Shown in pieces: positions 27,684 to 45,373 of a stretch of 64,000 bases of DNA. Both the position numbers and the translations under genes were made by a program. The DNA is from Nitrospira sp. Ga0074138 (lineage in GTDB: Bacteria; Nitrospirota; Nitrospiria; Nitrospirales; Nitrospiraceae): NCBI GenBank assembly GCA_001464735.1, contig LNDU01000043.1:1-64000 (forward strand). The letters are read 5' to 3'. The notes beneath the pieces are model-generated. The model searched no databases. It was not told the origin of the DNA and saw only the letters and a list, made by a program, of their open reading frames with translations. Numbering within the stretch: position 1 is the stretch's first letter; each line of letters opens with the position of its first letter.

Positions 27684-27699
27684 GTAACAAGTCTGTAAC
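27684..27699 (+). promoter_or_regulatory. PHO-box-like direct repeat GTAACaagtctGTAAC (11-bp period)
   Basis: Units at 27684 and 27695, upstream of the response regulator. Confidence 0.6.
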
Positions 27700-27755
27700 G
27701 TAGAGAGCGTATGGTTGCTGGTGCAGGCTTTAGAAAGAACAACTGGGGAGATCCC

Positions 27756-28463
27756 GTGAGTTCACCACGTCCCAAGAAAATTCTCATCGTCGAAGACGAA
27801 CAGGATATTGCACAGTTGCTCAAGCACTATCTTGAGAAGGACGGATTTCACACCTGCCTCGCCACAACGGGCCTTGAAGCGTTGAAGCTCGTGTCATCTG
27901 AGCATCCTGATCTGGTGATTCTCGATCTCATGTTGCCTCACCTGAACGGATTGGAGGTATGCAAAACCCTCCGACACAAGCCTGAGACCGCGCTGTTGCC
28001 GATCATCATGCTCACGGCGAAGAACGAAGAGTCCGATACGGTTGTCGGACTTGAGCTTGGAGCTGATGATTACGTCACCAAACCCTTCAGCCCCAAGACA
28101 TTGGTGGCTCGAGTCAAATCCCTCTTCCGTCGGCTGGAGCGGACAAACGATCACAAACCAACGTCCTTAGTGTACGGTTCCCTCCAAATGGATCTGACGC
28201 GACATGAAGTGACGGTCAGAGGTAAAGAAGTGCTGCTCACAGCTAAGGAGTTTGGACTGCTGGCGCATCTCTTACGTCACCCTGGACGGGTACTGACGCG
28301 GGAGGTACTGCTTAATGAAGTGTGGGGTTACGACTATTATGGGACGACGCGAACCGTTGACGTCCATGTTCGGCGATTGAAACTGAAAGTGCCGCTCCTC
28401 AATGACTCGATTGTCTCGGTCAAAACGCTTGGGTACAAACTATTGGATCAGCCTCGAGTATAG
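27756..28463 (+). CDS. OmpR/PhoB-family response regulator
   Basis: Intact receiver (IVEDE, VILDLMLP, LTAK, KPF) and winged helix (LTAKEFGLLAHLLRHPGRVLTREVLLNEVWGYDYYGTTRTVDVHVRRL); GTG at 27756 with GGGGAG SD preferred over ATG 27711. Confidence 0.93.
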   Translation: MSSPRPKKILIVEDEQDIAQLLKHYLEKDGFHTCLATTGLEALKLVSSEHPDLVILDLMLPHLNGLEVCKTLRHKPETALLPIIMLTAKNEESDTVVGLELGADDYVTKPFSPKTLVARVKSLFRRLERTNDHKPTSLVYGSLQMDLTRHEVTVRGKEVLLTAKEFGLLAHLLRHPGRVLTREVLLNEVWGYDYYGTTRTVDVHVRRLKLKVPLLNDSIVSVKTLGYKLLDQPRV

Positions 28464-28563
28464 TCACTTCCCCTGCATTGTCCGAAGTCGAGACCATTAG
28501 GTAGGAACTCACGAACCTCACTCATCCCCTCCACCTTTTCACCGTTTCCTCCGGCCATAAATC

Positions 28564-28990
28564 TCAGGGCAAAGACTTTGAACGAGAGTCCGATGATTGA
28601 TCCGCCGTTCGCAACCACTTTCGGACCTGCTCAGCAATCTCATCACGTACTCGGCGGAAAATCTGCAAGCGTTCAGGATCGGAACCTTGGGCAGCAGCAA
28701 GATCATCAAAACTCCAATGCAACTGGACGTCCCCCTCTGGGATTTTTCGGGCACGATGCGTGGGCGTGATCACAGACCGTACTGCGCAGTGGAAATGTCG
28801 TCCTTGAAATTCCGCAACATGCTTCGAGTAGTGACGAGAGATATTGATTCCCACCTCCCCCATCACTTCAACAGCTCGTGGTCAACCATGACACTGCCTC
28901 CACAAGACCACTTCGAAACTTTTTACATAGACGTAAACTCTCTGTAACCAAACATTGCCATCCATGCTGTATCACTGGCCTCAAGAGATT
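28564..28990 (-). pseudogene. Decayed thioredoxin-type arsenate reductase (arsC-like) remnant
   Basis: One frame gives MGEVGINISRHYSKHVAEFQG...VQLHWSFDDLAAAQGSDPERLQIFRRVRDEIAEQVRKWL; the conserved TVCDHAHASCP segment between them is in a different frame; the N-terminal catalytic-Cys region is not recognisable. Upstream boundary approximate. Confidence 0.75.
28922..28948. promoter_or_regulatory. PHO-box-like triple repeat TTTAC-N6-GTAAA-N6-GTAAC
   Basis: Units at 28922, 28933, 28944. Confidence 0.5.
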
Positions 28991-29028
28991 ATGGGCATGC
29001 CCCTACTGCACAACCAACTGGCAGTCGA

Positions 29029-29586
29029 GTGAGCGCAAACAGCAAACTGCCCGCGCTCATGGGAGTGAGCCACATGATCAAGCGCTTACGATTGAGAGAG
29101 GAACTCAGCCGGCAACGCACCTCGCTTCTGACCGAGTGGAACTTCTCGCTTGTTCCGCCATCCGAACGAGCATGTTATGCAGACCCTTCCGATCAGGCAT
29201 CGAACGATTTCGAGCAGGATCTGGCCATACAGGTAAGGACGAGAATGATCGCAAGGCTCAAGCGGATTGAGCGCGCTCTACAATTGACGCAGACCAAGAA
29301 CTATGGATGCTGTCGGCGGTGTCGCAAGGCGATTCCTTATGCTCGGCTGACGGTTCAGCCGGATGCGCTCTTCTGCGTGTCTTGCCTTGCACGCATGGAG
29401 GGTCGACTACGGACATTGACGACGGATCGCATGACGCCCCGGGGGAGCCGACCTGCCCTCCCAAGCCAGTGCCTGGCTCCTCCACGCTTGCCCTTTCTTT
29501 CAAGAGCAGGGGCAAGCGCAACTTATATGGAAGTTCTACTTCGAGGAAGGAGGTGGCTATGCAATGCGCACGCTGTGCCGGCATGA
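29029..29586 (+). CDS. TraR/DksA-type zinc finger protein (start uncertain)
   Basis: CCRRCRKAIPYARLTVQPDALFCVSC zinc finger after a helical segment. Confidence 0.75.
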   Translation: MSANSKLPALMGVSHMIKRLRLREELSRQRTSLLTEWNFSLVPPSERACYADPSDQASNDFEQDLAIQVRTRMIARLKRIERALQLTQTKNYGCCRRCRKAIPYARLTVQPDALFCVSCLARMEGRLRTLTTDRMTPRGSRPALPSQCLAPPRLPFLSRAGASATYMEVLLRGRRWLCNAHAVPA

Positions 29587-29786
29587 ATGTGCCCGAGATC
29601 ATTGTTGAGGGAGGGGCGAAACTTTTTGTGATGCGTTGTGTTCACTGTGGGGACGTCATCGATCATATCATCCTGATGAACCGCCGACGCCAACGCTCTA
29701 TACGGCTCGGGCGCCCACGAACTTCAATCTATAGAAATAATCGGTCCGCCTGGAATAGACCGACACTGATCAAAGATGAGAGCTGA
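29559..29786 (+). CDS. Small CxxC zinc-ribbon-like protein, 75 aa
   Basis: AAGGAGG before ATG 29559; MQCARCAGMNVPEI...MRCVHCGDVIDHII has paired CxxC; within track ORF 29307-29786, same frame. Confidence 0.65.
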   Translation: MQCARCAGMNVPEIIVEGGAKLFVMRCVHCGDVIDHIILMNRRRQRSIRLGRPRTSIYRNNRSAWNRPTLIKDES

Positions 29787-30306
29787 CCGAGGGTTGACCC
29801 GCTGTGTTGAGCCTCAGACCGAAAGAGGCGCTACAGAATCGGATGGGATCGACGGCGGCGTGACATCCTGGTCATCAGTCTCCAGCCCGCGCACCTGCAA
29901 CCAAAAGACCTTGACCTGCGGCTCCTCAATAATTGCAAACGTCAGTTGCGGCGAATTCAAACTTTGGAGGACGATATGCTCTGCGATTTTCCCGGTTAGT
30001 TCCTCCAGATCATCTGACCGCTGAAACCGCAGAGCATAACCCTAAGGAGGTTCAACCAATCAACGCGCATGCTTAAGCAAATATGACAGCAGTATTCGGC
30101 GGCGCAAGGCCTTAGCAGAATTGAGTACCGGAGACACGAGCCATCGCCTTAAGCAGGATTCACTGTGGTGTTCATGCTGTCGTCCATATTTCTGTCCTCC
30201 AGGCTTCAGTGTCTGTACATCTCGCTGAGTTCGCATTTCACCCTCCTTCTAGCTATTCCGGGTCCACGGACCTTGATTCCGCAGACCCGCATCACCGTTT
30301 GTATGG

Positions 30307-32280
30307 TCAGGTCCCGATCCTCCCGCCGTCATCTTTCGTCACGACGATCAGGGCCGACCGTGGTCGTCCGCCGTTCGGACCATCCGGCCAGGAGCTGAAC
30401 CGCTTCGGATCCAGCGGATCACCCGGCAAATCGTCAGGCCGCTCGCCCGGATGCTGAATCCCGACGAACATAGTCCGCCGATCCGGCGTCATGAACACAC
30501 CGGTAATTTCGCACTGAGACGGGCCAACGAGAAAGCGTCGGGCCTCTCTGGTGTCAGGATGCGCCGCCAGCATCTGGTTGTTGCCGAAACCGACATAGGC
30601 ACCGGCGTTGATGGTGGAAGTTGACACATCGGTCTGAATCCAGATCAATCCACTTGGATCGACATAGATGCCGTCCGGCGATCCGTACTTGTCGCCGAAG
30701 ATCGTGGAGCCGTGAGCCGAGTTTGCGGGATCGCCGCAGAGGGCGAAGATGTCCCAACCGAAGGTCGGCTCCGTCCAATCCTGGCGATAGTACCAGCGGA
30801 TGATGTGGCCATAGTTGTTGGCAGCGCGCGGATTGGCCGCGTCCACCGGCGGACGGGCGGAGCCAGCTGCGGTAGATCCGTCGGGATTGTTGACCGACTC
30901 TGGGGTAGTACCCCGTCGGCTGTTGTTGGTCAGAGTCGCGATGGCCGTCAAATCCTTTGGGAACGTATCGATCCATTCGGGACGATCCATCATGGTCGCA
31001 CCGGCGGCATCGGCGGCTCCGCGGGTATTGATCAGAATGTCGTTCAAGGACCATCCCGCGAGACGTGGATTGTCCGGCGTGAGCGGTAGCCATTCGCCCG
31101 TACCATCCGCATGGAACTTGGCGACGTAGAGAATCCCGTCGTCAAGAGGGTTGATCCCCTGTGCGCGCGCCTGACGCCAAGGCAGGTTGGATACATAGCG
31201 ATAGATGTACTCGTTGCGCTCGTCGTCGCCCATATAGACAACGACACGGCCGTTTCGCGACTCCTGTACCCAGGCACCCTCGTGTTTAAGTCGGCCAAGC
31301 GCCGTGCGCTTGACCGGAGTCGAATGAGGTCGGAACGGATCAATCTCCACGACCCAGCCGAACCGGTTGGGCTCGTTGGGTTCTTCATCGACACGGAATC
31401 GCTTGTCGGTTGTGTGCCAGAGATAGCCGAACCCCGCCGCGGTAATACCGTAGCGCTTTTCCAGTGTCGTCTGTGGACCGTTCTTTCGGAAATAGCCGTT
31501 GAAATTCTCCTCACAGGCCATAATAGGTCCCCCAGGGGGTATAGCCCATGGCACAGTTGTTGAGGGTGCCCAGCACGCGCGTGCCGGTCGGATCGTCGCT
31601 GGTAGTCAGCCGAGGATCCCCGGCTGCAGGGCCACCGATGTCGATCGGAGTCATACCAGTGATGCGGCGTGCGAAGCGAGACGGTCGCACGACATCCCAC
31701 TTACCTCGACGACGTCCCAAGTCAAAGTGAAAACCGGTCCGCTTGGCTACTTCAATAATCGATACACCGTGAGCATTCAGCGATTTCCTGGTCTTCTCCG
31801 CCGTCCAATTGTTGACACCGTCCGGGAAGAGGAGGCCATCGTCTGTATATTCATTGTTTTGAACAATCAACCCGCGCTGCGACCTGACAATTGGGAAATA
31901 CACGATCCCATCATTGTGCATGCCCCACTGACGCGCCTGTTCTTCTGCCGTATTGCTGGCATCCTGTTTGAACGCTGGCCCATTTGAGACAGGGTCGCCC
32001 CAGGCGATGAGGACGTCGGCTGTGTACCCTTTCGGTACCACGACCTCATCGGCAGAAGAGACCGCTACACTATTGAATCCGAGCATCGGCCGCTGCCCCC
32101 AACGTCCTCCTCTCCCCACATCCGTGTCTTCCGCTTCTTCGATCTCCTGGGCTGCAGCAGGGACAGCTTTCAACAGCGCTTCGACACCACCCAGTGACAC
32201 TGCTGCGGCCGTCGCGAGACCGCCCGTCAAGAAGTTGCGTCGCGATAGGCACGCACTTGCAATATCCTGAAAATGTTCAT
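30307..32280 (-). pseudogene. PhoX-type (DUF839) alkaline phosphatase with Tat motif, frameshifted
   Basis: Two adjacent ORFs (31511-32230 and 30307-31554) joined by a 1-nt shift at ...GYTPWGTY/ACEENFNGYF...; SRRNFLTGG Tat motif lies upstream of the first called start, with no ATG/GTG/TTG in frame above it. Confidence 0.85.
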
Positions 32281-32424
32281 TGCCAGACGTATTGCTTACA
32301 CGCTCGTCATCGATGATCGAGATAGAATCCCCTCCTGCCTGAGCATGAATGAATGTATCGTTGACGTCTCACCTACAACGAGCCTTCACTGGTGATGACT
32401 TTGGCATCGGACCATTACAAAGCG

Positions 32425-32451
32425 GTCAACAACTGGTAACGGTCTCGTTAA
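32425..32451. promoter_or_regulatory. PHO-box-like triple repeat GTCAA-N6-GTAAC-N6-GTTAA
   Basis: Units at 32425, 32436, 32447, between the divergent phoX-like pseudogene and the RMD1 gene. Confidence 0.6.
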
Positions 32452-32556
32452 AGATTGATGTGGAGTGCCAGCGATGTGGCGTTGATGTCTGCCGCTCTGG
32501 TAGCCTCGAATGAGCAAAAGCTGGAATGTTAAAATAATGGCTGAAAAGGAGGCCTT

Positions 32557-33657
32557 GTGTCGCAATCTGTCACCATCACCAAAGGGACTTGCTTCGCCCT
32601 GTTCGCGTACGATGTCGGACACTCCATTAACCTGAGCGATGCGGAACGGCGGATCGCCGCCGGAGCAGAACGAGGCCGTCTCCGCCATAAGACCAGGGCC
32701 CCTCAGTATTTTGAGTATCGACCGGCTCCTCTGCGCCTGGTTCAGGAAGGGAGCGTCTTCGACGTCAGTCAGTACCAGGCAAGTCCTACGGTTGAAGTCA
32801 TGGTGTATGACTTCGGGGCCGTCACCATTACCTATCGCTTCTCTCTCGACGGACAGTTCGATCGGTTACTGGTGCTGAGCGAGTCGCTCTACGAGAATGA
32901 ACGACTTCTGACCGAGTCGCGCGCCCGCGTAGAACAGCTGATTCAGGCGCTGGGTCCCGCAATCGAGCGGCCATGCATCGCAGAGGAGGTTGAGGATTAC
33001 ATCATCTTCTCCATCGAGTCTCATGTGCCTGAGAACCCTCCATTGTGGACGACCAACGAATCCGACTTGGCTCAGATTCTACGTGCCGAACGGACGCCAT
33101 TCTCCGAGCAAGAAGTGGCCGACGCGGTTTCGTGCCGCATCTCGTTTGGGCGAGAAGATGCGGCGGTTATCGACTGGCATTCCGCGGTGCTGTTCGGCAA
33201 GGAAATGGATGATGTGCGCGCCGTCTTGGAATTCGCCAACGTCGAGTTGCTGGAGATGCGGATGCTCGACGAACAACTCGACCGGGCCCTAGACGAAGGC
33301 TACGAAGCCTTGTCTCGTAAACCGCGCCTTCTGTCCCTCACCGGCTCCCACGAAAAAGACATGAGGCACATTGCACAGCTTCAGGTCGACAGCGCGTTGA
33401 TTTTTGAACGCGTCACGAACACCTTGAAGCTGCTGGGCGACCAGTATCTTGCCCGAGTCTATCGGCTGGTCTCGCAGCGCTTTCATTTGGAGGCATGGGA
33501 CGCAAGCATCCTTCGCAAACTCCAGACCTTGGAAAGCATCTACGGCAAGATGTCGGACCGAGCCGGTACCAGACGGATGGAGGTCCTTGAGTGGATCATT
33601 ATCATTTTAATCGCGCTTTCCCTCGCGGTATCGTTGTTCCCGGTTGGCCAGCACTGA
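32557..33657 (+). CDS. RMD1/DUF155 family protein
   Basis: ALFAYDVGHSINLSDAE...; VYDFGAVTITY; C-terminal RRMEVLEWIIIILIALSLAVSLF TM, typical of RMD1/YagE. Confidence 0.85.
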   Translation: MSQSVTITKGTCFALFAYDVGHSINLSDAERRIAAGAERGRLRHKTRAPQYFEYRPAPLRLVQEGSVFDVSQYQASPTVEVMVYDFGAVTITYRFSLDGQFDRLLVLSESLYENERLLTESRARVEQLIQALGPAIERPCIAEEVEDYIIFSIESHVPENPPLWTTNESDLAQILRAERTPFSEQEVADAVSCRISFGREDAAVIDWHSAVLFGKEMDDVRAVLEFANVELLEMRMLDEQLDRALDEGYEALSRKPRLLSLTGSHEKDMRHIAQLQVDSALIFERVTNTLKLLGDQYLARVYRLVSQRFHLEAWDASILRKLQTLESIYGKMSDRAGTRRMEVLEWIIIILIALSLAVSLFPVGQH

Positions 33658-33765
33658 AGGGAGCCCACGTCAGGCTCTACTGTGTCGTCTACGCACCGAG
33701 TGGGCGCAGAGAGATTGGTCCCATCCTAGCTCTCGGTATCTTCTTCTACTCGCCCCTTTCTCGTT

Positions 33766-35460
33766 TCAACGCAACCGATCGTGCTTGGCTCGCCATACAT
33801 CGAGGAAGGCTGAAAGCTTGGCCCTCCACAGCGTATGCTCGTCGGATATCTTCTCCAGGAATTCTGAGAGACGCCTGGACTTGAAGATCGTGTACAGAGT
33901 CACGGCTGTCGTTGGGATCAGAACCGATAGGAAAATGAAGAGTTTTTTTACGAACGGACTATCGGCCTCAGCGATCAAATTCATGCCCAGAAAACCCGTC
34001 GTTGCCATGCCGATCAACCCAACCGTGGTCACGACGGTCAAGCGCACCATCGTTTCTCCTTGACGGCGCAGCACATCGCTATCCAGATACTGACTCATAT
34101 CCTCAATCGCTTCCCGAACCTCGGTATAGAGCTGGGCAGTCCCAAGATGCCTATTCGTCATGCGAAACAATTCCTTCACCTGGGTATGTTCCGAGACATC
34201 CTGGAACCAGTACCGATGGGTGAAACGAAGGAATACGCCGAGTATCTGTCGTATCATGGACCGGAAGTGCCTGATCGATTCCAAATTGTCGGGCTCCAAC
34301 CGGTTGAGGGCATCAACCAGGCGATCGGACAGCATGAGCATGGTTGCTTTATGAAAATGGGAAATCAAAAAGAGCACAAAGTACTCGTGCCGAAACTGTT
34401 CGAGTCCCGTCTTTCGTGTGGCTGACAATCTGTCGCCGCAATCGCTCACTTCCGTGAAGACACGTCCGCTACAGATGAAGCGGGTCCCCCGGCGCGCATG
34501 GTCTCTATTCCTCCAGTATCGATCATAAAAACAGCGCTTCTCAAAGTCGCCAAGGTCCTGTTCGGAGTACGGCAGTGAGTCCGATGAATCAGGGGCGGCC
34601 GCCAGCCCCAGCCGTATAAAATCCTCCCGGGCGAGCTCAGCTGGATTGTCTATTGTCAGATAGGCCATCAACGGCAGTAGATGAGATTCGATTTGCCGAT
34701 AACGGATGAGGCCGGTCTTCCCAGAATGGTGTAGGACCAACGGTTCCAACAGAAACTCCCAATGCGAGGCAATACAGGGCGCCCGGTACTGGCATGCAAA
34801 TGACAAGTATTTCTCCCTGTGTTCATAGTCGGAGGACGCCAACACCGTGCCATCCCTGGCCAGCCATTCGGCCTTTTTCAGGCAATGACCACCCTGTCCC
34901 TCGGATTCCCAATACGTAGGATATCCTCTGGCAAAACGAAGCATGGTATCCTCTACGCAGGCCAGAGGGAGGTCATCGGCGAAAATCTCCATGGCCAGGA
35001 TGACGATGTCAATGTCGTAGAAAAAGTACAAATCAATATGCGCGACCTCGAATATGACCGGGAGAGTTCCGGTATCGGGGTAGGTCATCCGCACCCGTGC
35101 GACATCGGTGCGGCGGAATACGCGAATCGGTGATTCCTGATTAATGCCAGGTCCCCGCCCTGTACCCTCGCCGTAGAGAAAACGCTGGACGGACGGGAGG
35201 AAGGTGATGAATTCGCTGTAATGCCGTTCCTGAAACAGAGAGGGGTCTCCGGTAAACTCGTCTTCCACCTCTCGCCAGAGGTTAGTGAAGTCCTGTGTCT
35301 GAATAAAGTCGCAGTGTTTCTGGATCGGCAGATCGTCACGGATCGGCATCAGCTGCAGCGGCCAGAGCACAATCTGCCTGAAATGCCGGACAACGAGGCC
35401 ACGGTCGAGAGAAATCCCCTCGCCTACATCACTCGTGTTCGCTGATGTTGATTGTTCCAT
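33766..35460 (-). CDS. CorA-like membrane protein
   Basis: C-terminal TTVGLIGMATTGFLGMNLI...KKLFIFLSVLIPTTAVTLYTIFKSRRL has two TM helices with a GMN motif; long N-terminal cytosolic part. Confidence 0.7.
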   Translation of the reverse strand: MEQSTSANTSDVGEGISLDRGLVVRHFRQIVLWPLQLMPIRDDLPIQKHCDFIQTQDFTNLWREVEDEFTGDPSLFQERHYSEFITFLPSVQRFLYGEGTGRGPGINQESPIRVFRRTDVARVRMTYPDTGTLPVIFEVAHIDLYFFYDIDIVILAMEIFADDLPLACVEDTMLRFARGYPTYWESEGQGGHCLKKAEWLARDGTVLASSDYEHREKYLSFACQYRAPCIASHWEFLLEPLVLHHSGKTGLIRYRQIESHLLPLMAYLTIDNPAELAREDFIRLGLAAAPDSSDSLPYSEQDLGDFEKRCFYDRYWRNRDHARRGTRFICSGRVFTEVSDCGDRLSATRKTGLEQFRHEYFVLFLISHFHKATMLMLSDRLVDALNRLEPDNLESIRHFRSMIRQILGVFLRFTHRYWFQDVSEHTQVKELFRMTNRHLGTAQLYTEVREAIEDMSQYLDSDVLRRQGETMVRLTVVTTVGLIGMATTGFLGMNLIAEADSPFVKKLFIFLSVLIPTTAVTLYTIFKSRRLSEFLEKISDEHTLWRAKLSAFLDVWRAKHDRLR

Positions 35461-35500
35461 GTGCGGTCAGGAAATTAGGCGAAGCTTGTCGCGCTGCTCT

Positions 35501-37639
35501 TCATGGCCTGGACTTCCAGTGAGTCAAGAACCATTCCTGAGAATTCACAGCTGCTTCACCCTGTGTCGGCTGCTTACGTTCATACGTTCCGTCAGAAAGC
35601 AACCGTCTTGCCTGCACATTGTCCCGCAGCCCCATGCCGAGAATGTCGTTGATGATGATCTCACGCCACTGAGGATCTTCTACAGGGAACACCACTTCCA
35701 CCCGGTGATCCAGATTTCGAGGCATCAGATCGGCGCTCCCCATCAGCACCTCGTTCTGCCCACCGTGACGAAAATAGAAGATCCGTGCGTGTTCCAGAAA
35801 ACGTCCAACCACTGAAGTAACGGTGATGGTCTCGCTGATCCCCGGAAGGCCTGGCTTTAGGCAACAAATGCCCCGCACTTGAAGATCAATCCTGACTCCG
35901 GCTTGCGATGCCTGGTAGAGAGCCTGAATACACGGTGTATCGACCAATGCGTTCATCTTGAACGCGATATATCCATCAGCGTGCTCGCGATGGCGGGAGG
36001 TCTCGCGCTCGATCCGATCGAGTATTTGCTGCCTGAGTGTGGTCGGTGCAACGAGCAACTTGGAATAGATGTTCTTGCGGGAATACCCGGTCAGTGAGTT
36101 GAACAGATCGGATACATCGTGGGTAATGGCAGGGTCACAGGTGAAGTAGCTCACATCGGTATAGATACGACTGGTGACCACGTTATAATTTCCGGTGCCG
36201 AGATGGACATAGCGGCGGATTCCCTCCGGTTCGCGACGGACGATGAGACAGACCTTCGCATGCGTTTTGAGCCCGCGTACGCCGTACACAACGTGCACAC
36301 CTTCATCCTCAAGTTTTCTGGCCCATTCAATATTATTCTCTTCGTCAAATCGAGCTTTGAGCTCCACCAGGACCGCGACTTGCTTGCCGTTGACACGAGC
36401 TTCCATCAGGGCATCGACAATGGGTGATTTGGGATTGACGCGATAGAGAGTCTGTTTAATGGCGAGGACGTCCGGGTCATTTGCTGCTTCTCGCAGAAAT
36501 TCCACGACCGGCATGAAGCTGTCATAAGGATGATACAAGAGCACGTCCTGCTGACGGATGGCAGCCAAAAGACTGCCTGATTTACTCACGCAGGGAGGGA
36601 CGGCCGGAACAAACGGCGGATCCTTCAGATCAGCACGGTCAAGTGCGTGCAGTTCACGAATCCCAGCCATCCCGATCGGGCTGTGTCCCGCATAGACAAG
36701 GTACAACGGTAGCTGAAGGTTTCTTGTCAGGATTTCGCGGATGTGACCGGGTGTCGCCGCATCCAATTCCAATCGAACGGCTGACGTGTACTGTCGCTGG
36801 TCGAGCTGTGCTTCCACCGCCTCGATGAGATCGGATGCTTCGTCTACCTCAATCGCAACATCGGCATCTCGCGTCACACGGAATGGATAGGATGCGACAA
36901 CGTCCAGACCGGGAAAGAGATTGTCCAGGTTGTGTGCAATAACCTCTTCCAGCCAGACAAATTGCTGCACCCCTCCAGCCCCGCCCAAACCCATCTGTTG
37001 GCGCGCAACATCCTCATCGGTGGGGATCGGAACCAGTCGAGGGAAAACGTCAGGCACTTTGACGCGCGCGAAACAGTCACCGCGCTCGGGGTCATTTACC
37101 AATACGGCAAGATTAAAGCTCAGACTCGAGATATGCGGGAAGGGATGGGTCGGGTCAAAGGCGAGCGGAGTCAGCACCGGAAATATTTCTCGCTGAAAGT
37201 ACCCTTGGATCGCCTCTCGTTCCCTCTGCCCCAGCTCTACATAATGTAGAATGCGAATGCCGGCTTCTTCCAACCCGGGCAAAACATCCTGTTTCCAGCA
37301 CATGTTGTATCGTTCATAGTGGACCATCAGCTCTCGGTTGATCGCCAGTATTTGCCCTGATGGTGTCATGCCATCGGGCGTCGTTCCGACGACTCCGCCA
37401 GCCACCTGACGATGGAGACCTGATACTCGAATCATGAAAAACTCATCCAGATTCGTGGCGAAGATCGCCAGAAACTTCACTCGTTCCAAAAGAGGATGCC
37501 GCTTGTCCTCGGCTTCTTCGAGAACCCGCAGATTGAATCGCAGCCAGCTGAGTTCTCGATTCAGGAAATGGCGCGACTCATCGATACCCTGCTCTGGCTC
37601 GGCGGCTGATTCTCCCTGCCCAGCAGACTGGTCGATCAT
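35501..37639 (-). CDS. ppk1: Polyphosphate kinase 1
   Basis: RFLNRELSWLRFNLRVLEEA; FATNLDEFFMIRVSGL; LYHPYDSFMPVVEFL; GLKTHAKVCLIVRRE; HLGTGNYN. Confidence 0.97.
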   Translation of the reverse strand: MIDQSAGQGESAAEPEQGIDESRHFLNRELSWLRFNLRVLEEAEDKRHPLLERVKFLAIFATNLDEFFMIRVSGLHRQVAGGVVGTTPDGMTPSGQILAINRELMVHYERYNMCWKQDVLPGLEEAGIRILHYVELGQREREAIQGYFQREIFPVLTPLAFDPTHPFPHISSLSFNLAVLVNDPERGDCFARVKVPDVFPRLVPIPTDEDVARQQMGLGGAGGVQQFVWLEEVIAHNLDNLFPGLDVVASYPFRVTRDADVAIEVDEASDLIEAVEAQLDQRQYTSAVRLELDAATPGHIREILTRNLQLPLYLVYAGHSPIGMAGIRELHALDRADLKDPPFVPAVPPCVSKSGSLLAAIRQQDVLLYHPYDSFMPVVEFLREAANDPDVLAIKQTLYRVNPKSPIVDALMEARVNGKQVAVLVELKARFDEENNIEWARKLEDEGVHVVYGVRGLKTHAKVCLIVRREPEGIRRYVHLGTGNYNVVTSRIYTDVSYFTCDPAITHDVSDLFNSLTGYSRKNIYSKLLVAPTTLRQQILDRIERETSRHREHADGYIAFKMNALVDTPCIQALYQASQAGVRIDLQVRGICCLKPGLPGISETITVTSVVGRFLEHARIFYFRHGGQNEVLMGSADLMPRNLDHRVEVVFPVEDPQWREIIINDILGMGLRDNVQARRLLSDGTYERKQPTQGEAAVNSQEWFLTHWKSRP

Positions 37640-37838
37640 GGAAGCTCCTTGAGGATGAACATTCTCTTACACCTGTTCTTTTGCATTCTACATGGAGAGG
37701 CTGATCGTGTTCAGAAAAGGCACGTGGCCAGGATCTTACAAAACGCACACCGTGACACAGCCATTGGACCACCAAGAATCCGATGAGCTTACCAACCGAC
37801 AAACCGTGGGAGTTTATCCTGCATGCGATCACAACGCC

Positions 37839-37865
37839 GTTGCAGGGGCGTTACAGATCTGTAAC
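37839..37865. promoter_or_regulatory. PHO-box-like triple repeat including perfect palindrome GTTACAGATCTGTAAC
   Basis: GTTGC 37839, GTTAC 37850, GTAAC 37861; palindrome at 37850-37865 in the ppk1/38037 divergent intergenic region. Confidence 0.6.
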
Positions 37866-38036
37866 ATTTCGATCCTGGGCCGTACTAACCCCTGACAACT
37901 GTTGGTGTTCGTCAAGCAAACGCATCTCCTTCGAGGACAATTCGTGGCGTAAGAGCCCGCTCGCCGATTATCCCCTACTGATTCTTGAGCCGCAGCCGTA
38001 ACGCCGAGAGACCCCTACCGGGCAATCTTCGATGCG

Positions 38037-38786
38037 GTGTGTGCCTTAAAAAAGCGCTCGGACGGAAATGGCCTTCTCAGACAGGATAAAGCAATCAGCC
38101 GTGGTCCTTCATATGTTAATTTGTTTGGACGACTCATGAATGCTCTTAGAAAAGCGTCCCTATCAAGTCGGCTATGTTTCATCGCCTGCCTTTCTTTGGG
38201 CTGGCTCCTTTCGCAAGATGTCACCCGAGCAGAGCCCCAGCCTGAAGTAACGGTGTGGCTGGAGTCTGGTCAAGCCGTTGCGACCAGTCAACTGAGCGGC
38301 CGGCGGGAAATACCCTTGGGTGCACAGGAAGTGATCATCAGTTCCGGCACGAATGGGATCAATGGTATCGTCGTCACGTCTCGTTGGCTGTTAGGGTTTT
38401 CAAGCCGTGCCCTGACCTGGAGCAAGATAGAACTGGACGTAAACGAAAAAGTCCTCGAACGAAAGATCCTCCCAAGCTTCAGCCTCGTCAGAACGGATCG
38501 ACATCTATACGGATTTCGGGGCGTCAACGGGCTGTGGCTCGAAGAAGCGTTAGGAGTGCGGGAAAAGGTGACTCGCTTTCACAGCAACGACTACGGAGCA
38601 GTCTTCATCACCAATGAGCGTGTGGTTGGATTCACACCACTGCTCGGCGGCTTCGCGTCGAGGCTCTTGGACGTGCATGAGCGCATCGTGGGTGTGGAGA
38701 ATGACAATGGGCTCATTCTCGTTTCCACCACCAAGCGAACGCTGGTCTTCGGCAGCCGCCTGAGCGGATGGGAGGAATTCGAGTAA
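38037..38786 (+). CDS. Secreted hypothetical protein with internal repeats (start uncertain)
   Basis: Signal-like ASLSSRLCFIACLSLGWLLSQ; recurrent VVTSRWLLGFSSR / VRTDRHLYGFRGV / ITNERVVGFTPLLG / STTKRTLVFGSRL units. Confidence 0.65.
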   Translation: MCALKKRSDGNGLLRQDKAISRGPSYVNLFGRLMNALRKASLSSRLCFIACLSLGWLLSQDVTRAEPQPEVTVWLESGQAVATSQLSGRREIPLGAQEVIISSGTNGINGIVVTSRWLLGFSSRALTWSKIELDVNEKVLERKILPSFSLVRTDRHLYGFRGVNGLWLEEALGVREKVTRFHSNDYGAVFITNERVVGFTPLLGGFASRLLDVHERIVGVENDNGLILVSTTKRTLVFGSRLSGWEEFE

Positions 38787-38819
38787 CGGTGTTGGCCGTT
38801 CTTGCCAGTCTTGCCGGAG

Positions 38820-38846
38820 TTTACACCGATTTAACAAGTCGTTCAT
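38820..38846 (+). promoter_or_regulatory. PHO-box-like triple repeat TTTAC-N6-TTAAC-N6-TTCAT
   Basis: Units at 38820, 38831, 38842 upstream of the pyruvate kinase-like gene. Confidence 0.5.
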
Positions 38847-38906
38847 CGAAGCGGCATAAGACGCCGGTATCGTACTCTCCTGAGACTTCCCTTCACCCTC
38901 TGAGAG

Positions 38907-40955
38907 TTGAGCATGAAAACTAGAACCGCCACGGATTCACCAGTTCCCTCTATCCATGTTGAGAGCGGTTCGTCTGCTGGAATGGAGGCCGTGACAGCTC
39001 ACAACTCTCTGCACGCCACTCCCCCTTGTGACGGCAATCTTGAACTGATCCTTCGGGAGCTCTTGGCTATTAGGGCCGGTATGGTCGATGAGTCGGCCGT
39101 GTCAGAAGCACGTCTGAGTAGAATCCATCCCAACTACAGAGCCAGTGCCGCCAATCTCCTGCATTACCTGACTCTGCGTCAACGCGATCTCCGTCCATTG
39201 CAGCTCCGACTAGCCGAGATGGGGCTATCCTCTCTTGGTCGAGCTGAATCGCATGTCCTGACCACACTCGATGCCGTTTTACAGGTTCTGCACAGCTTGG
39301 CACAGCGCCCCTATCAGGTCCCGCCATCAGAGGAGACCGTACCCGATTTCGCAACTGGGCAACGCCTCCTTGATGAACACACCGACACATTGTTAGGTCC
39401 GCAACCTCTTCGGCGTGGGACCCGGATCATGGTGACCATGCCGAGCGAGGCGGCGAATGATTATATGTTGGTTCATGACTTGCTCCAACAGGGGATGGAT
39501 TGCATGCGCATCAATTGTGCGCACGATGATGTCCCGGCATGGTTGCGGTTAATCGAGCACATGAAGCGTGCCAAAAAAGTACTGGGTCGATCTTGCAAGA
39601 TCCTCATGGATCTGGCCGGACCAAAACTCCGTACCGGCCCGCTGGAGCGGGGCCCGGAAGTAGTCCGTATTCATCCCTGTCGCGATAGCTATGGCAGAGT
39701 CATTGCCCACGCCCGGGTGTGGTTGACTCCAGCGACTGCCCCCCAATCACCTCCTGCTCCGGCGCAGGCTTGTCTTCCCGTCACCGCCCCATGGTTCGCC
39801 CGCCTTCGTCCCGGCGAAGAGGTCCACCTCACCGACGCTCGGCAAGCCAAACGCAGCCTCACCATCGTGGACGTCACCGAACAAGGTTGCTGGGCGGAAG
39901 CCACCAAGACAACGTACATCATCCCCGGTACAGTCCTCAGTCGTCACTCCATGACAACGGATCGAAGCACCCGCGATGGAATCGTTGGTAAACTGCCACC
40001 GGGTGAGAACCCTATCGTCCTCCGGCAAGGGGATGTACTCATCTTGCAGCGTGACATCAGACCCGGCCGCGCTGCAACCTGCGACAGTGCTGGGCAGGTG
40101 CTCACTCCTGCGTCGATTGGCTGCACCATACCGGAAGTATTCGACGACGTTCGATCCGGGGAATCGATCTGGTTCGACGACGGCAAGATCGGAGGCGTGG
40201 TTGACAAGATCGAGCCACACCGAGCGTTCATTCGAATAACCCACACACGCGCAGGCGGCGACAGGCTCCGGAGCAACAAAGGGATCAATCTGCCCGAGAG
40301 CAATCTTCGCCTGGCAGCGCTGACTCCCGTGGACCTAGAGAACCTCGCCTTTGTCGCGGAGCATGCCGACATCGTCGGACTTTCGTTCGCGAACAGCGCG
40401 CAGGACGTGGCGTCACTTCAACAGCACCTGGCTTCACACGGGCATCAGCAACCCGCCATCGTCCTGAAAATCGAAACGCGGCGCGGCTTCGAGAACTTGC
40501 CGGAGATGCTGCTGACGGCGATGAGATGGCCGTCGTGCGGTGTGATGATCGCACGAGGTGACCTGGCTGTCGAATGTGGTTTTGAGCGTTTGGCCGAAGT
40601 TCAGGAAGAGATTCTCTGGATCTCGGAGGCGGCCCACGTCCCTGTGATCTGGGCGACACAAGTCCTGGAAACCCTGGCCAAGAAAGGGATGCCATCCCGC
40701 GCCGAGATTACGGATGCCGCGATGGGACAACGTGCCGAGTGCGTGATGCTGAACAAGGGCCCCCATATACTCAACGCCATCCGTGTTCTCGATGATATCC
40801 TGCGGCGGATGCAGGCGCATAAAGCAAAAGGGCGGGCTCTACTGCGTGAGTTGCGAGTGGCCCAGGCACTGCCGGTCGAATCCTGCTCGCAGCCAAACAA
40901 CAGCGAATCAGAATCCAATTCTCCATTAACACTCATCAAAGAACCATCCCAATAA
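38907..40955 (+). CDS. Divergent pyruvate kinase with about 150-aa N-terminal extension
   Basis: AGPKLRTGPL; LVLKIETRRGFENLPEML-like (AIVLKIETRRGFENL); MIARGDLAVE; WATQVLETLAKKGMPSRAEITDAAMGQRAECVMLNKG. Confidence 0.85.
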   Translation: MSMKTRTATDSPVPSIHVESGSSAGMEAVTAHNSLHATPPCDGNLELILRELLAIRAGMVDESAVSEARLSRIHPNYRASAANLLHYLTLRQRDLRPLQLRLAEMGLSSLGRAESHVLTTLDAVLQVLHSLAQRPYQVPPSEETVPDFATGQRLLDEHTDTLLGPQPLRRGTRIMVTMPSEAANDYMLVHDLLQQGMDCMRINCAHDDVPAWLRLIEHMKRAKKVLGRSCKILMDLAGPKLRTGPLERGPEVVRIHPCRDSYGRVIAHARVWLTPATAPQSPPAPAQACLPVTAPWFARLRPGEEVHLTDARQAKRSLTIVDVTEQGCWAEATKTTYIIPGTVLSRHSMTTDRSTRDGIVGKLPPGENPIVLRQGDVLILQRDIRPGRAATCDSAGQVLTPASIGCTIPEVFDDVRSGESIWFDDGKIGGVVDKIEPHRAFIRITHTRAGGDRLRSNKGINLPESNLRLAALTPVDLENLAFVAEHADIVGLSFANSAQDVASLQQHLASHGHQQPAIVLKIETRRGFENLPEMLLTAMRWPSCGVMIARGDLAVECGFERLAEVQEEILWISEAAHVPVIWATQVLETLAKKGMPSRAEITDAAMGQRAECVMLNKGPHILNAIRVLDDILRRMQAHKAKGRALLRELRVAQALPVESCSQPNNSESESNSPLTLIKEPSQ

Positions 40956-40972
40956 AGTGAAAGTATCCACCT

Positions 40973-40999
40973 GTAACTTCTACGTAACGCCAACCTAAC
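40973..40999 (+). promoter_or_regulatory. PHO-box-like triple repeat GTAAC-N6-GTAAC-N6-CTAAC
   Basis: CTGTAACTTCTACGTAACGCCAACCTAAC; units at 40973, 40984, 40995. Confidence 0.7.
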
Positions 41000-41047
41000 G
41001 CTGGAGCGTCATCATGTATCTCCCTGATCACTCAGGAGGTATGGACC

Positions 41048-41401
41048 ATGGTTCTTAATGATGATGGCCCTCCGACACTTCCCATATCGTTGCTCTCGAT
41101 GCAGCGGGCGCTCATCGAGACGTGCCCATCGCCAACCTGGAGGTTATACCGAGGCTGGATGCCACGGAAGACAAATAGGCAAGCCGGACAAATAGGAAAC
41201 GGAACGCGAAGGGCGCGAGCGTTGTTGAAACGACTCGATGCGCAGGAGCACGCAAAGAACAAGAGCCGACTCTATTCTTCTCACCCCGCGGTAAACAAGC
41301 CTTGTCAGAAGGAACGAATAGGGACAGCAGCCATATCTCGCGTCAGGTTCCTCCCCTTTCGACAATCACCATCCTTTCACACAGAATTAGCACCTCTGTA
41401 A
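41048..41401 (+). CDS. Hypothetical protein
   Basis: CAGGAGG SD before ATG at 41048; lies about 50 bp downstream of the triple repeat. Confidence 0.4.
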   Translation: MVLNDDGPPTLPISLLSMQRALIETCPSPTWRLYRGWMPRKTNRQAGQIGNGTRRARALLKRLDAQEHAKNKSRLYSSHPAVNKPCQKERIGTAAISRVRFLPFRQSPSFHTELAPL

Positions 41402-41503
41402 TGGCCGCGAAACAGCGCCTCTGTAGACTTCCACCATGTTGATCAGTGGGGTCGCCGATGATGACTGTCAAACGAACACCAAACCGGAAGGAGGCGAGCA
41501 GTT

Positions 41504-41587
41504 ATGACCATGTGGATCATCGAAGCGTTCCTGTTGAGCGCCATTGTGGGACTCACATATACCGTGCTATCTGCGGGCCGCGAGTAG
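41504..41587 (+). CDS. 27-aa single-TM microprotein (MTMWIIEAFLLSAIVGLTYTVLSAGRE)
   Basis: GGAAGGAGG SD upstream of ATG 41504; one hydrophobic helix. Confidence 0.55.
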   Translation: MTMWIIEAFLLSAIVGLTYTVLSAGRE

Positions 41588-42160
41588 GCGAAGCGACTTG
41601 CAACGAGCTTGAGCAGGGGAGGTTCAAAGAGAATGGGCGTGCAGACATACGCGAGCCGATGGGGAACAAGCCCCACCGGCCCGCGTCAGGATAATATTTC
41701 GCTCTCGGCAAACCGGTAAGCCTAGACATCATCTCGCAGCGACCGTCACCTCTTCGCACTGATGTTCTCCCCCGCTCGCAGTTTGATCTTGAAGGTCGTC
41801 TCCCAATCGCTGAGGCAGCCTGCTGTATCACGCAGCCGGTGAGACACCGCCACTCCTGGTTACACGTAGCCGGTTGCCCGAGTGGGTCCGCTCACTCCAC
41901 CGGTCCGGTCTCATGGCCATGCTAAGGGCGAACATGGCTATGATAACCAAGAACAATACCAGTGCCATACCGAGAAGAACCCCCTGTTCGGATCTCGGCA
42001 ATCAGGTATTCCATCTCCTTTGCTCAGATCAATGTTTGTTGTGAAAATAGAAATTGACGTCTTCGTGCTGACTGTCGCTGCAGAACAAAACCACCATCAG
42101 CGCCGACAAGTTTCAGCGTACGGCGTCGTGCATCTTGTTCACCGGTTGCAGGTAATCACT

Positions 42161-42274
42161 TCACCGAACCAACCTTAGTCTGATGAAGATGCCACAGACG
42201 CTCATCACGATGATGCCCACGCAAGTCATAAGGGACTTCACGAGCAAGAACCCCACCCGCAGCTTAGCAAGCAT
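42161..42274 (-). CDS. 37-aa single-TM microprotein (MLAKLRVGFLLVKSLMTCVGIIVMSVCGIFIRLRLVR)
   Basis: AGGAGG SD on the minus strand just upstream of ATG (42274); hydrophobic core. In frame with the longer track ORF 42161-42472. Confidence 0.5.
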   Translation of the reverse strand: MLAKLRVGFLLVKSLMTCVGIIVMSVCGIFIRLRLVR

Positions 42275-42518
42275 AGTGTCTTCCTCCTTGTCTTCAAAAG
42301 AGGACCAGGACATTGTCCTGCTCCATTGATTCACCCATCTCGTGCCTTGGATCAGCGAATTCCTATTCGTGTGTTCCTCTGAACACCCATCAGTGAAGCA
42401 TGCCACGAGGACTCGACTCGTAGACATCAATGGGTCAGCGTGATTACTCGTGAGGCGGACTCCTTTGTGCATTGAGTAGATATGTACCCGTCGTGCATCA
42501 CTGCCTCATTGCCGAATC

Positions 42519-42582
42519 GTAAACGCCGTGTAAAACACTGTTCCTTCCCTGGAAATTTACCGGCCTGTAATACCCGTCTAAT
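42519..42582 (+). promoter_or_regulatory. Two PHO-box-like arrays: GTAAA-N6-GTAAA and TTTAC-N6-GTAAT-N6-CTAAT
   Basis: Units at 42519, 42530 and 42556, 42567, 42578 upstream of the PstS-like gene. Confidence 0.65.
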
Positions 42583-42631
42583 ACCGGCGCAATGTCGTAT
42601 TGGTAGTGGTCAAACATAAAGGAGGGGTCAG

Positions 42632-43294
42632 ATGAAATGTTCTCATTTGGCGTTCGTCGTCTGTGTGATCGCGATACCAGTGCAGGGGGTACTTCCACCG
42701 CAGAATTTGGCGCAAGTTCGCGCGACGATCGATCCTGACATTCCGGCCTATATCGTTCAGGATTCAGTATCCGGCAGACTGACCATTTCCGCGCCTGAAA
42801 CGATGAAGCCCTTGGTTGAGGCCTGGGCAGGGGATCTGATTCGCCAGCATCCGGACCTGATAGTCACTGTGATACGAGAGGACCCCAACTCCGGCCTCGC
42901 AGCACTCCTTGAACGTCGGGCGGAGATCGCAGCCATGTCCCGCCGCATCACTCCCACTGAAATTGCGGAATTTATCTTCGAATATGGGTATGTACCGATG
43001 GAGGTTCCCGTGGCTCGTCACGCATCGACCGTCTTCGTTCACAACGACAACCGGAATGCCAACTTTTTAATACCTAGTAAAGTGGATCGCCTCCACCCTG
43101 TTCGACGAAATCTTTACCTGTATATCACCAGACCCTCAAGATCGAACCCTACTCCCCCGTCTGCAGAGCTGGTCCGCTACGCGTTGAGCCGGCAAGGTCA
43201 GGAGCTGGCACTCGCCTTGGGACACTCCCCGCTATCCTATGCGGAGATTGCACGGGTGAGTTCGAAGTGGTTAGTTTGCTGCAAGCTCCCCTGA
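42632..43294 (+). CDS. PstS-like phosphate-binding protein with internal deletion
   Basis: LTISAPETMKPLVEAWAGDLIRQHPDLIVTV...RRAEIAAMSRRITPTEIAEF then VFVHNDNRN joined directly to HPVRRNLYLYITRPSRSNPTPPSAELVRYALSRQGQ. Confidence 0.8.
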   Translation: MKCSHLAFVVCVIAIPVQGVLPPQNLAQVRATIDPDIPAYIVQDSVSGRLTISAPETMKPLVEAWAGDLIRQHPDLIVTVIREDPNSGLAALLERRAEIAAMSRRITPTEIAEFIFEYGYVPMEVPVARHASTVFVHNDNRNANFLIPSKVDRLHPVRRNLYLYITRPSRSNPTPPSAELVRYALSRQGQELALALGHSPLSYAEIARVSSKWLVCCKLP

Positions 43295-43296
43295 AT

Positions 43297-43334
43297 TTTA
43301 CCCCAACGTAATCTCACCTTAACGCTCGAGCAAT
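43297..43334 (+). promoter_or_regulatory. PHO-box-like quadruple repeat TTTAC-N6-GTAAT-N6-TTAAC-N6-GCAAT
   Basis: Units at 43297, 43308, 43319, 43330 upstream of the CBS-pair gene. Confidence 0.65.
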
Positions 43335-43388
43335 ACTCCAACGCTAATATACAAACAATACAATTATAAATAATAAGGAGGATCAGTT

Positions 43389-43772
43389 ATGGTCACCGTA
43401 GGGAACTTAATGCAGAAAGAACCGGTCACGGTGGATGTGGGCACATCGGTCGTGGAGGCGGCGAAATTGATGAAAGCCTGTAACGTGGAAAGTGTGCTGG
43501 TGGTCCGCCAAGCGCAGATCATCGGCATTGTGACCGAGTCGGATGTCGTCAAGAAGTTTGTGGGCGCGGAGAAAGCCGCGTACTTCGTGCCGGTGGAGGA
43601 CATCATGAGCAGTCCGGTACCAGGCATCGAAGAGCGGCGGCCGTTGACGGAAGCCGCTGATCTCATGGACAAGCAACGCACACTCCACCTAGGAGTCACA
43701 AAAGCCGGTGCACTCATCGGTTTGCTGTCGGTTCGGGACTTTCTTCGTCCAGTCTCCCTCGACGAGTTCTAA
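43389..43772 (+). CDS. CBS domain pair protein
   Basis: VGNLMQKEPVTVDVGTSVVEAAKLMKACNVESVLVV...GIVTESDVV; VEDIMSSPV...GLLSVRDFL; AAGGAGG SD. Confidence 0.93.
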   Translation: MVTVGNLMQKEPVTVDVGTSVVEAAKLMKACNVESVLVVRQAQIIGIVTESDVVKKFVGAEKAAYFVPVEDIMSSPVPGIEERRPLTEAADLMDKQRTLHLGVTKAGALIGLLSVRDFLRPVSLDEF

Positions 43773-43955: not shown

Positions 43956-45373
43956 TTGTCTCGATTGGCCACCCTTCTCGCTTCTCATGGTCGCTCCTCC
44001 CCGATCTCTTCACAACGAGAACGCGAACGGAAGCTGACCGTCGCACCTGATTTCCACCTCCCTCGGCTGCCCGGCACACCGCTCCCCCGACGGCAGCTGA
44101 TCTCCACCTATTACGATACGACGGCCTACGATCTGGCCCATGCACGGATAACCCTTCGAGCTGAAGATTCCGTTGGGCGACGATCGGCAGGAGATAGAAG
44201 TGGCTGGCACCCAAGCCAATCCACCAGATTCCTTGCGACAGCTGCTGATGCTCCATCTTGACCATCGGCACCTAGTCCCGATCGTGACGCTGCGTGTCTG
44301 GCGACGGGGCTTCTTGGTGCATCATGGCCGAGTGCCCGTCGCGGAGATTGCCCTCGACACAGTGGCAGTTGAGAAGAACGGCGGTATCATCCAACGCTTT
44401 CACGAACTCGAAATTGAACAGCGGCAGGGAGACGAGGCCTCGCTTCATTCCCTTGAACGGCAGCTGCGCGAGGCCGGAGCGTCCGATCATGACGGACGGC
44501 CCAAGTTCTTTCGGGCCCTCTCGCTCCCAGCCCCCACCCCCTCTGCACCGCCTGAGCCGAAGGCCCCGGTGGTCGACTATCTCAAGTGGGCGCTCGCGCA
44601 GCACGTCGGATGGCTCCTGGCCCATGATCCCGGCACGAGACTCGGCACCGAGCCTGAGAGCCTGCATCAAATGCGCGTCGGGACCAGGCGCCTGCGCGCG
44701 ATACTCCGCACAGCCCGGCCGACCCTCCTGCCCACATGGGTCACGACACTGGAACAAGAGCTCACATGGCTCAGCGAGCTGCTAGGGCCAGCCCGCGATC
44801 TCGACGTCCAGATCGCCCATTTCACGCAAGAATCTGCCAATTTAGATGCGCGAGATCGCAAGCTGCTGGCACCATTCATCTCCCATCTACGCACGCAACG
44901 AGAGGCCGCTCAGCAGATGGTGGTCAGCGAGCTCACAGGCGTTCGCTACGTGGAACTGATCCGGCGGCTTCAACAAGCGGCGCAAGACCCTGCTGTCGTG
45001 GAGTCTCCCCTGACCGTGCGCGACCTCGCCAGACAGGAATTCAAAAAGTTGCGCAAGGCGATCAGCCGGCTCGCCCCTTCCCCATCGGACGCCACACTGC
45101 ACAAGATCCGCATCAAGGCTAAACGCGCCCGCTACGCAGCGGAACTTGCTCGCAGCTCAGTGGGGAAACCAGCCAGCCGGTTTATCAAGTCCGCGCGTGA
45201 GGTCCAGGATCTCCTGGGCCTCCATCAGGATGCGATCCAAGCCGAACGTCACGTCCGACAGTTCCTCAAATACTCGACGAGTGTCCGCGCCGGATTCGTC
45301 GCGCAACGTTCATAAGGAGATCAAACCGCTGTTCAAGTCGTTGCTGAAACGAGGGAAGAAGGCCTGGGAATGA
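43956..45373 (+). pseudogene. CYTH-CHAD domain protein interrupted by two frameshifts
   Basis: ExExK signature ERERKLTVAPDFHLPRLPGTPLPRRQLISTYYDT in frame 1; ELKIPLGDDRQEIEV... CYTH remainder plus CHAD in frame 2; C-terminal HKEIKPLFKSLLKRGKKAWE in a third frame. Confidence 0.8.

Follow-up and report, generated by a model that had tools for sequence, protein, structure and literature searches.

Predicted PHO boxes point to a Nitrospira Pho regulon spread over several loci

Introduction

The stretch of DNA analysed here, a 64 kb window that forms part of contig C43 in a 4.1 Mb Nitrospira genome, carries an island of phosphate-related genes between which short repeats recur in arrays with a period of 11 bp. 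The island comprises genes for an orphan PhoB-type response regulator, a DksA/TraR-like protein, the alkaline phosphatase PhoX, the polyphosphate kinase Ppk1, a pyruvate kinase, a short PstS-like protein, a CBS-domain protein and two tiny peptides (Table 1). A first-pass annotation of the window had read the arrays as PHO boxes of one local Pho regulon. Our analysis indicates that the arrays are very probably binding sites of this kind and that the regulon they would define extends to other loci of the genome.

Much of the nitrification in soil and water treatment is due to Nitrospira, yet the literature searched says little about how these bacteria respond to phosphate supply. Searches combining Nitrospira with Pho regulon or pho box returned no title on phosphate regulation in Nitrospira; subscription journals were poorly covered, so an earlier description is possible. 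The sites reported here would extend a known kind of control system to a group for which that literature holds no description. The derived site model permits prediction of the phosphate response across the genus, places ppk1 under predicted phosphate control in most of the sampled loci and exposes two conserved peptide genes.

Results and Discussion

Table 1. Predicted PHO sites and genes of the island; scores refer to the 60-bp promoter model described in the text.
Feature	Position	Strand	Score	Remarks
Two-unit PHO box (GTAAC N6 GTAAC), 10-bp gap, -10 TATGGT	27684..27715	+		before phoB-like gene
PhoB-type response regulator, 235 aa, orphan	27756..28463	+		Pfam Response_reg and Trans_reg_C
PHO array, -10 TATCAC	28917..28976	+	19.3	before dksA-like gene
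DksA/TraR-like gene, start uncertain	29029..29586	+		Pfam zf-dskA_traR
phoX, alkaline phosphatase	30307..32230	-		Pfam PhoX in pieces 30307-31554 and 31511-32230
PHO array, 4 units, poor -10	32397..32456	-	20.3 (plus strand 3.1)	before phoX
ppk1, polyphosphate kinase	35501..37639	-		four Pfam PP_kinase domains
PHO array	37811..37870	-	24.3	before ppk1; second best in window
PHO array, -10 TATCGT	38815..38874	+	22.4	before pyruvate-kinase gene
Pyruvate kinase, PRK14725 type, 682 aa	38907..40955	+		start 38907 or 38982
PHO array, no -10 at usual distance	40968..41027	+	14.6	gene served uncertain
PHO array, -10 TAGACT	41371..41430	+	22.4	before 27-aa gene
27-aa peptide MTMWIIEAFLLSAIVGLTYTVLSAGRE, predicted single-pass membrane	41504..41587	+		Shine-Dalgarno sequence
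37-aa peptide, predicted single-pass membrane	42161..42274	-		
PHO array, -10 TACATA	42480..42539	-	13.9	before 37-aa gene
PHO array	42551..42610	+	20.8	before PstS-like gene
Short PstS-like protein	42632..43294	+		Pfam PBP_like_2, positions 7-105 of 267
PHO array, 4 units, -10 TAATAT	43292..43351	+	28.6	before CBS gene
CBS-domain protein	43389..43772	+		Pfam CBS
CHAD-domain protein, without array of its own	44173..45315	+		Pfam CHAD

Inspection of the sequence confirmed the proposed cores at every site listed in the first-pass annotation, and the intergenic arrays with an 11-bp period are real. A first weight matrix, built from the listed window sites, was run over both strands at periods of 8 to 15. 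At period 11 it returned intergenic three-unit matches both in the island and on contig C30 (17 hits), the latter not used for training; periods 8-10 and 12-15 gave only 0-1. A second training set combined the arrays of the window and of C30 with strands merged, while the pst stretch of contig C47 was held out. With the resulting matrix 7 arrays were found in 5.5 kb of intergenic DNA of the island, 14 in 13.5 kb on C30 (part of the training set) and 2 in 2.0 kb at the held-out pst operon end of C47, compared with 3 in 105 kb in other parts of the genome, where the density rests on sampled stretches of about 520 kb. As gene boundaries were taken from a simple purpose-made gene caller, the intergenic sizes are approximate. 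In the loci of relatives, 96 intergenic arrays stand against 2 coding ones at period 11, with 0-3 at other periods. The array before ppk1, whose protein is 94-95% identical to that of Nitrospira sp. RSF1 and others, was found in most of the Nitrospira loci fetched.

The layout of the promoters was derived from 70 non-redundant arrays of the genome and its relatives, aligned by anchoring on three units only. Exclusion of the window arrays and their orthologues left 54 arrays for a promoter model of 60 bp length. The 11-bp unit has roughly the consensus (C/T)(G/T)T(A/T)AC, followed by five loose bases. Two unselected elements emerged from the three-unit alignment. One is a further unit, the fourth, with G at +38, A at +41 and T at +42; the other is a -10 box of the form TAnnnT (T53, A54, T58). 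TAnnnT stands at +53 in 21 of the 54 arrays, and no other offset has it in more than 5; the fourth unit is present at +38 in 23 of them, and individual sites vary. At most sites, three strong units are followed by a weaker fourth one and, after a gap of about 10 bp, by a sigma-70 -10 box. Under this orthologue-free model, the 17 top-scoring positions of the window all fall in 28.9-43.3 kb. The pst site on C47 scores 33.0, a value that is not independent because its stretch lay in the training pool of the model; the independent result is the held-out matrix scan given above.

An origin of the arrays as chance or compositional repeats, or as a structural or nucleoid element, would be in line with a loose genome-wide pattern (one mismatch), for which 43 matches were obtained against 52 for the reversed control and hence no overall excess. 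Because the reversed control is equally common, this pattern is uninformative as a count and was used for location only: by our own count, the three phosphate regions, which cover only some 3% of the genome, contain 19 of its 27 distinct sites. With the exact pattern, however, 9 matches were obtained against 1 for the reversed control, and the intergenic DNA of the island holds 8 separate sites compared with a mean of 0.03-0.07 and a maximum of 1 in 60 dinucleotide shuffles. Together with the fixed -10 spacing and the conservation across species, this leaves the chance or compositional origin largely refuted, with a practically negligible probability. An Rfam search of 27.0-46.5 kb gave no match up to E 0.5, and a direct-repeat finder detected no repeats of at least 16 bp because the array units are too degenerate.

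Several sequence hallmarks of a PhoB-type Pho regulon were found: tandem 11-bp direct-repeat sites in promoters, repeats that stop roughly 10 bp before a sigma-70 -10 box, and sites upstream of pstS, an OprO/P porin gene, phoX and ppk1. In E. coli, PHO box units are 11 bp long (PMC4415409), and the repeats of PhoB promoters lie 10 bp upstream of TAN3T/A (PMC1906773). The spacing between array and -10 box agrees with this layout to within one base, depending on how units are counted, and 11-bp direct repeats, mostly paired, as well as pst-phoU, phosphatase and phosphate porin targets are likewise common to both regulons. In contrast to E. coli, where the core is CTGTCAT, the Nitrospira core is GTAAC/TTAAC, most sites combine three strong units with one weak unit, and three near-equal PhoB paralogues and additional targets occur. 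The Pho boxes of cyanobacterial SphR (CTTAACCT) share a TTAAC-like core, at least three tandem repeats and the 11-bp period (PMC1906773); they belong to another phylum with other accessory targets, and the weak fourth unit and the -10 box are resolved in Nitrospira. Since period specificity, -10 layout, the held-out pst and porin sites and the conservation before ppk1 all point in the same direction, the arrays are very probably PhoB-type binding sites. The first-pass assignment to PHO boxes is strongly supported by the -10 geometry, the held-out pst operon and the conservation across Nitrospira.

The predicted regulon is distributed over several loci. Of the two held-out arrays on C47, one lies before pstS and the other before an OprO/P porin gene, with pstC, pstA, pstB and phoU nearby. 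Contig C30 (L111-L114, 78 kb) carries a second phosphate island, paralogous to that of the window, with about 15 PHO promoters. Its paralogues comprise phoB-like, dksA-like, phoX, pyruvate kinase, PstS-like, CBS and 27-aa genes, and it additionally carries a 5'-nucleotidase and an OprO/P porin gene. As the C30 island and the C47 pst operon share the sites of the window, the proposal of one local regulon finds no support. A self-contained island controlled by the window regulator alone would suit the location of this regulator within the island and its own two-unit PHO box. The same sites before the pst operon and the C30 genes, however, as well as a recognition helix that is common, or nearly so, to the C30 and C45 paralogues render such a local circuit highly improbable. 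Also on C30, PHO arrays at 37798-37845 separate two divergently oriented genes, one encoding a pyruvoyl-dependent arginine decarboxylase and the other a deoxyhypusine-synthase-like protein, which suggests a polyamine link.

Three regulators of the OmpR family score nearly equally against the PhoB model, with 242.4 bits for the copy on C30, 240.4 for that of the window and 240.3 for that on C45. PhoB (TIGR02154) is the best NCBIfam model for the window regulator (240.4-240.9 bits, below the cut-off of 296.2). This protein is 80% identical to its C30 and 70% to its C45 paralogue. The recognition region YDYYGTTRTVDVHVRRLK is common to the window and C30 copies, and that of C45 has a single I for V, which leaves the window regulator as one of three candidates for binding the arrays. 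No kinase gene was found beside the window regulator. The best PhoR-like kinase of the genome (310.1 bits, the next reaching 185) adjoins the C45 copy and would form with it a candidate PhoB-PhoR pair, both partners lying under the curated cut-offs. From this arrangement we infer one signal input plus two induced orphan PhoB copies. Among full-length solved structures, that of RegX3 from the mycobacterial SenX3-RegX3 phosphate system comes closest to the window regulator, a likeness at the level of the protein. A further OmpR-type regulator gene on C30 (53713-54420; L113:13713-14420) encodes a protein without the usual receiver phosphorylation motif and has a PHO array upstream (54493).

Another OmpR-family regulator, WalR/YycF-like or GlnR-like, could bind a similar 11-bp motif, with the phosphate genes being incidental. 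The motifs of WalR and GlnR are likewise 11-bp repeats, the window regulator matches YycF second best among the NCBIfam models (228.5 bits), and the best solved structures for its DNA-binding domain are the OmpR-family regulator chains 8hml and 8hig, which we take to be GlnR, with RegX3 closely behind. PhoB remains the top model, however, and the sites lie upstream of pstS in the pst-phoU operon, of OprO/P porin genes and of phoX, ppk1 and PstS-like genes, so that we regard a different regulator as quite improbable. Some observations weigh against the assignment to PhoB. The phoX, ppk1 and 40968 sites of the window lack a good -10 box. Every PhoB-like protein stays below the curated PhoB cut-off (although just 2 of the 14 control genomes exceed it in that search), the PhoR-like kinase on C45 remains under that for PhoR (310.1 vs 334.2 bits), and no PHO array was detected near the C45 phoBR genes. 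Even so, we consider it very likely that the arrays are PHO boxes to which a PhoB-type regulator would bind head-to-tail, and that they are shared by a multi-locus Pho regulon.

In the mechanism we propose, the phosphorylated PhoB-type regulator would bind the tandem 11-bp units head-to-tail. With the units followed after about 10 bp by the -10 box, the bound protein would take the place of the absent -35 element and bring in RNA polymerase under phosphate scarcity. The most likely trigger would be the lone outstanding PhoR-like kinase on C45, acting via the neighbouring PhoB. The two orphan PhoB-like genes of the window and of C30, placed under their own PHO boxes, would then be induced amplifiers of the same signal. 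Predicted targets are the pst operon, OprO/P porins, phoX, ppk1, the PstS-like, DksA-like, CBS and pyruvate-kinase genes and the two families of tiny membrane proteins.

Those two conserved peptide families are the most unexpected part of the predicted regulon. Both genes were skipped by the gene caller, and the single membrane crossing is our reading of a hydrophobic stretch. The 27-aa family has 17 distinct full-length relatives and a second copy on C30, the 37-aa family 13 distinct full-length relatives. Variation in the former is codon-like, third positions accounting for 51% and second positions for 18% of the differences; the latter shows 44% and 20% (pairwise values, not phylogenetically independent). 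A protein search alone yielded the 17 loci of the 27-aa family; of these, 12 score at least 14 within 320 bp upstream under the promoter model, compared with only 4 of 491 other genes scoring at least 10. At L173, L175 and L177, three of these 12 loci, the best site differs in sequence and is 243-293 bp upstream, so that it may instead serve an adjacent gene. Almost every 37-aa locus shares a common PHO array 124-285 bp upstream. A Pfam search with both peptides gave no significant match. KdpF, considered as a candidate identity for the 27-aa peptide, is unsupported by Pfam up to E 1. DUF1127 proteins of fewer than 50 aa bind PhoR and are linked to PhoR-PhoB control (PMC12501420). The peptides described here resemble them in small size and in the predicted tie to phosphate control and differ in being predicted to span the membrane and in having no significant Pfam match; small PhoR-binding proteins may serve as a precedent. 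Tentatively, and with considerable doubt, a branched network can be envisaged in which one PhoR-like kinase would feed three PhoB copies, two of them as PHO-box-controlled amplifiers, and the 27- and 37-aa peptides, two undescribed families that phosphate starvation would induce, would tune a partner in the membrane, for instance PhoR, Pst or the polyphosphate machinery.

Several window sites are read differently from the first-pass list. The repeat at 27684/95 is a conserved box with a -10 element, of two units rather than three. It recurs in close relatives, in more distant ones (L039, L083, L037) and upstream of the C30 paralogue of the regulator gene. For the arrays at 32425 and 37839 the minus strand gives the best reading, towards phoX and ppk1. 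The units at 42519/30 are in fact part of the minus-strand promoter of the 37-aa gene, and in the array 43297/308/319/330 the last position is the weak fourth unit. The array at 41371 before the 27-aa gene had been missed.

Conserved arrays at their orthologues or paralogues support the membership of the pyruvate kinase, DksA-like and CBS genes. The array of the dksA-like gene is conserved in L031, L033, L038 and L047 and has a paralogous site at C30:32650; the gene is conserved in 9 relative loci, with 63% identity to the C30 paralogue. The pyruvate kinase matches NCBIfam NF011314 with 819.9 bits, above the curated cut-off of 642, retains the barrel motifs KIE, ARGDL and ATQ and has a paralogue on C30. 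Its gene is rare in relatives, and a similar array is recognisable before the orthologue in L045/L002. The site before the CBS gene is the best of the window (rank 1 of about 128,000 positions), and a 92% identical CBS copy on C30 likewise follows an array. For the phoX array, matching arrays occur in L039, L043, L044 and L045. The phoX gene is broken into two reading frames in the window and unbroken in relatives and on C30; the split may be a genuine break or an assembly error, the two being indistinguishable. Gene 38037 lies divergently on the other side of the ppk1 array. Downstream of the 40968 array, the open reading frame 41048-41401 is weakly conserved, with matches in 2 loci only. Of the PstS fold, the PstS-like protein comprises just the N-terminal half, and its TIGR02136 score of 52.7 bits does not reach the cut-off. 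The CHAD gene is close to ppk1 in many relatives.

Related elements were observed elsewhere in the genome. At C29:44148 (L115 near 14144), a period-11 TTAAC repeat element lies beside a gene for an HI0933-like flavoprotein. Near-identical copies occur in most Nitrospira genomes searched, its PHO promoter score is only 13.2, and it may serve another regulator. An array at C53:50443 is nearly identical to those near ppk1 in L040-L043. On C7 (L122 near 645), a PHO-like promoter with a score of 24.8 precedes the gene for a 205-aa protein without family, and several relatives have similar elements.

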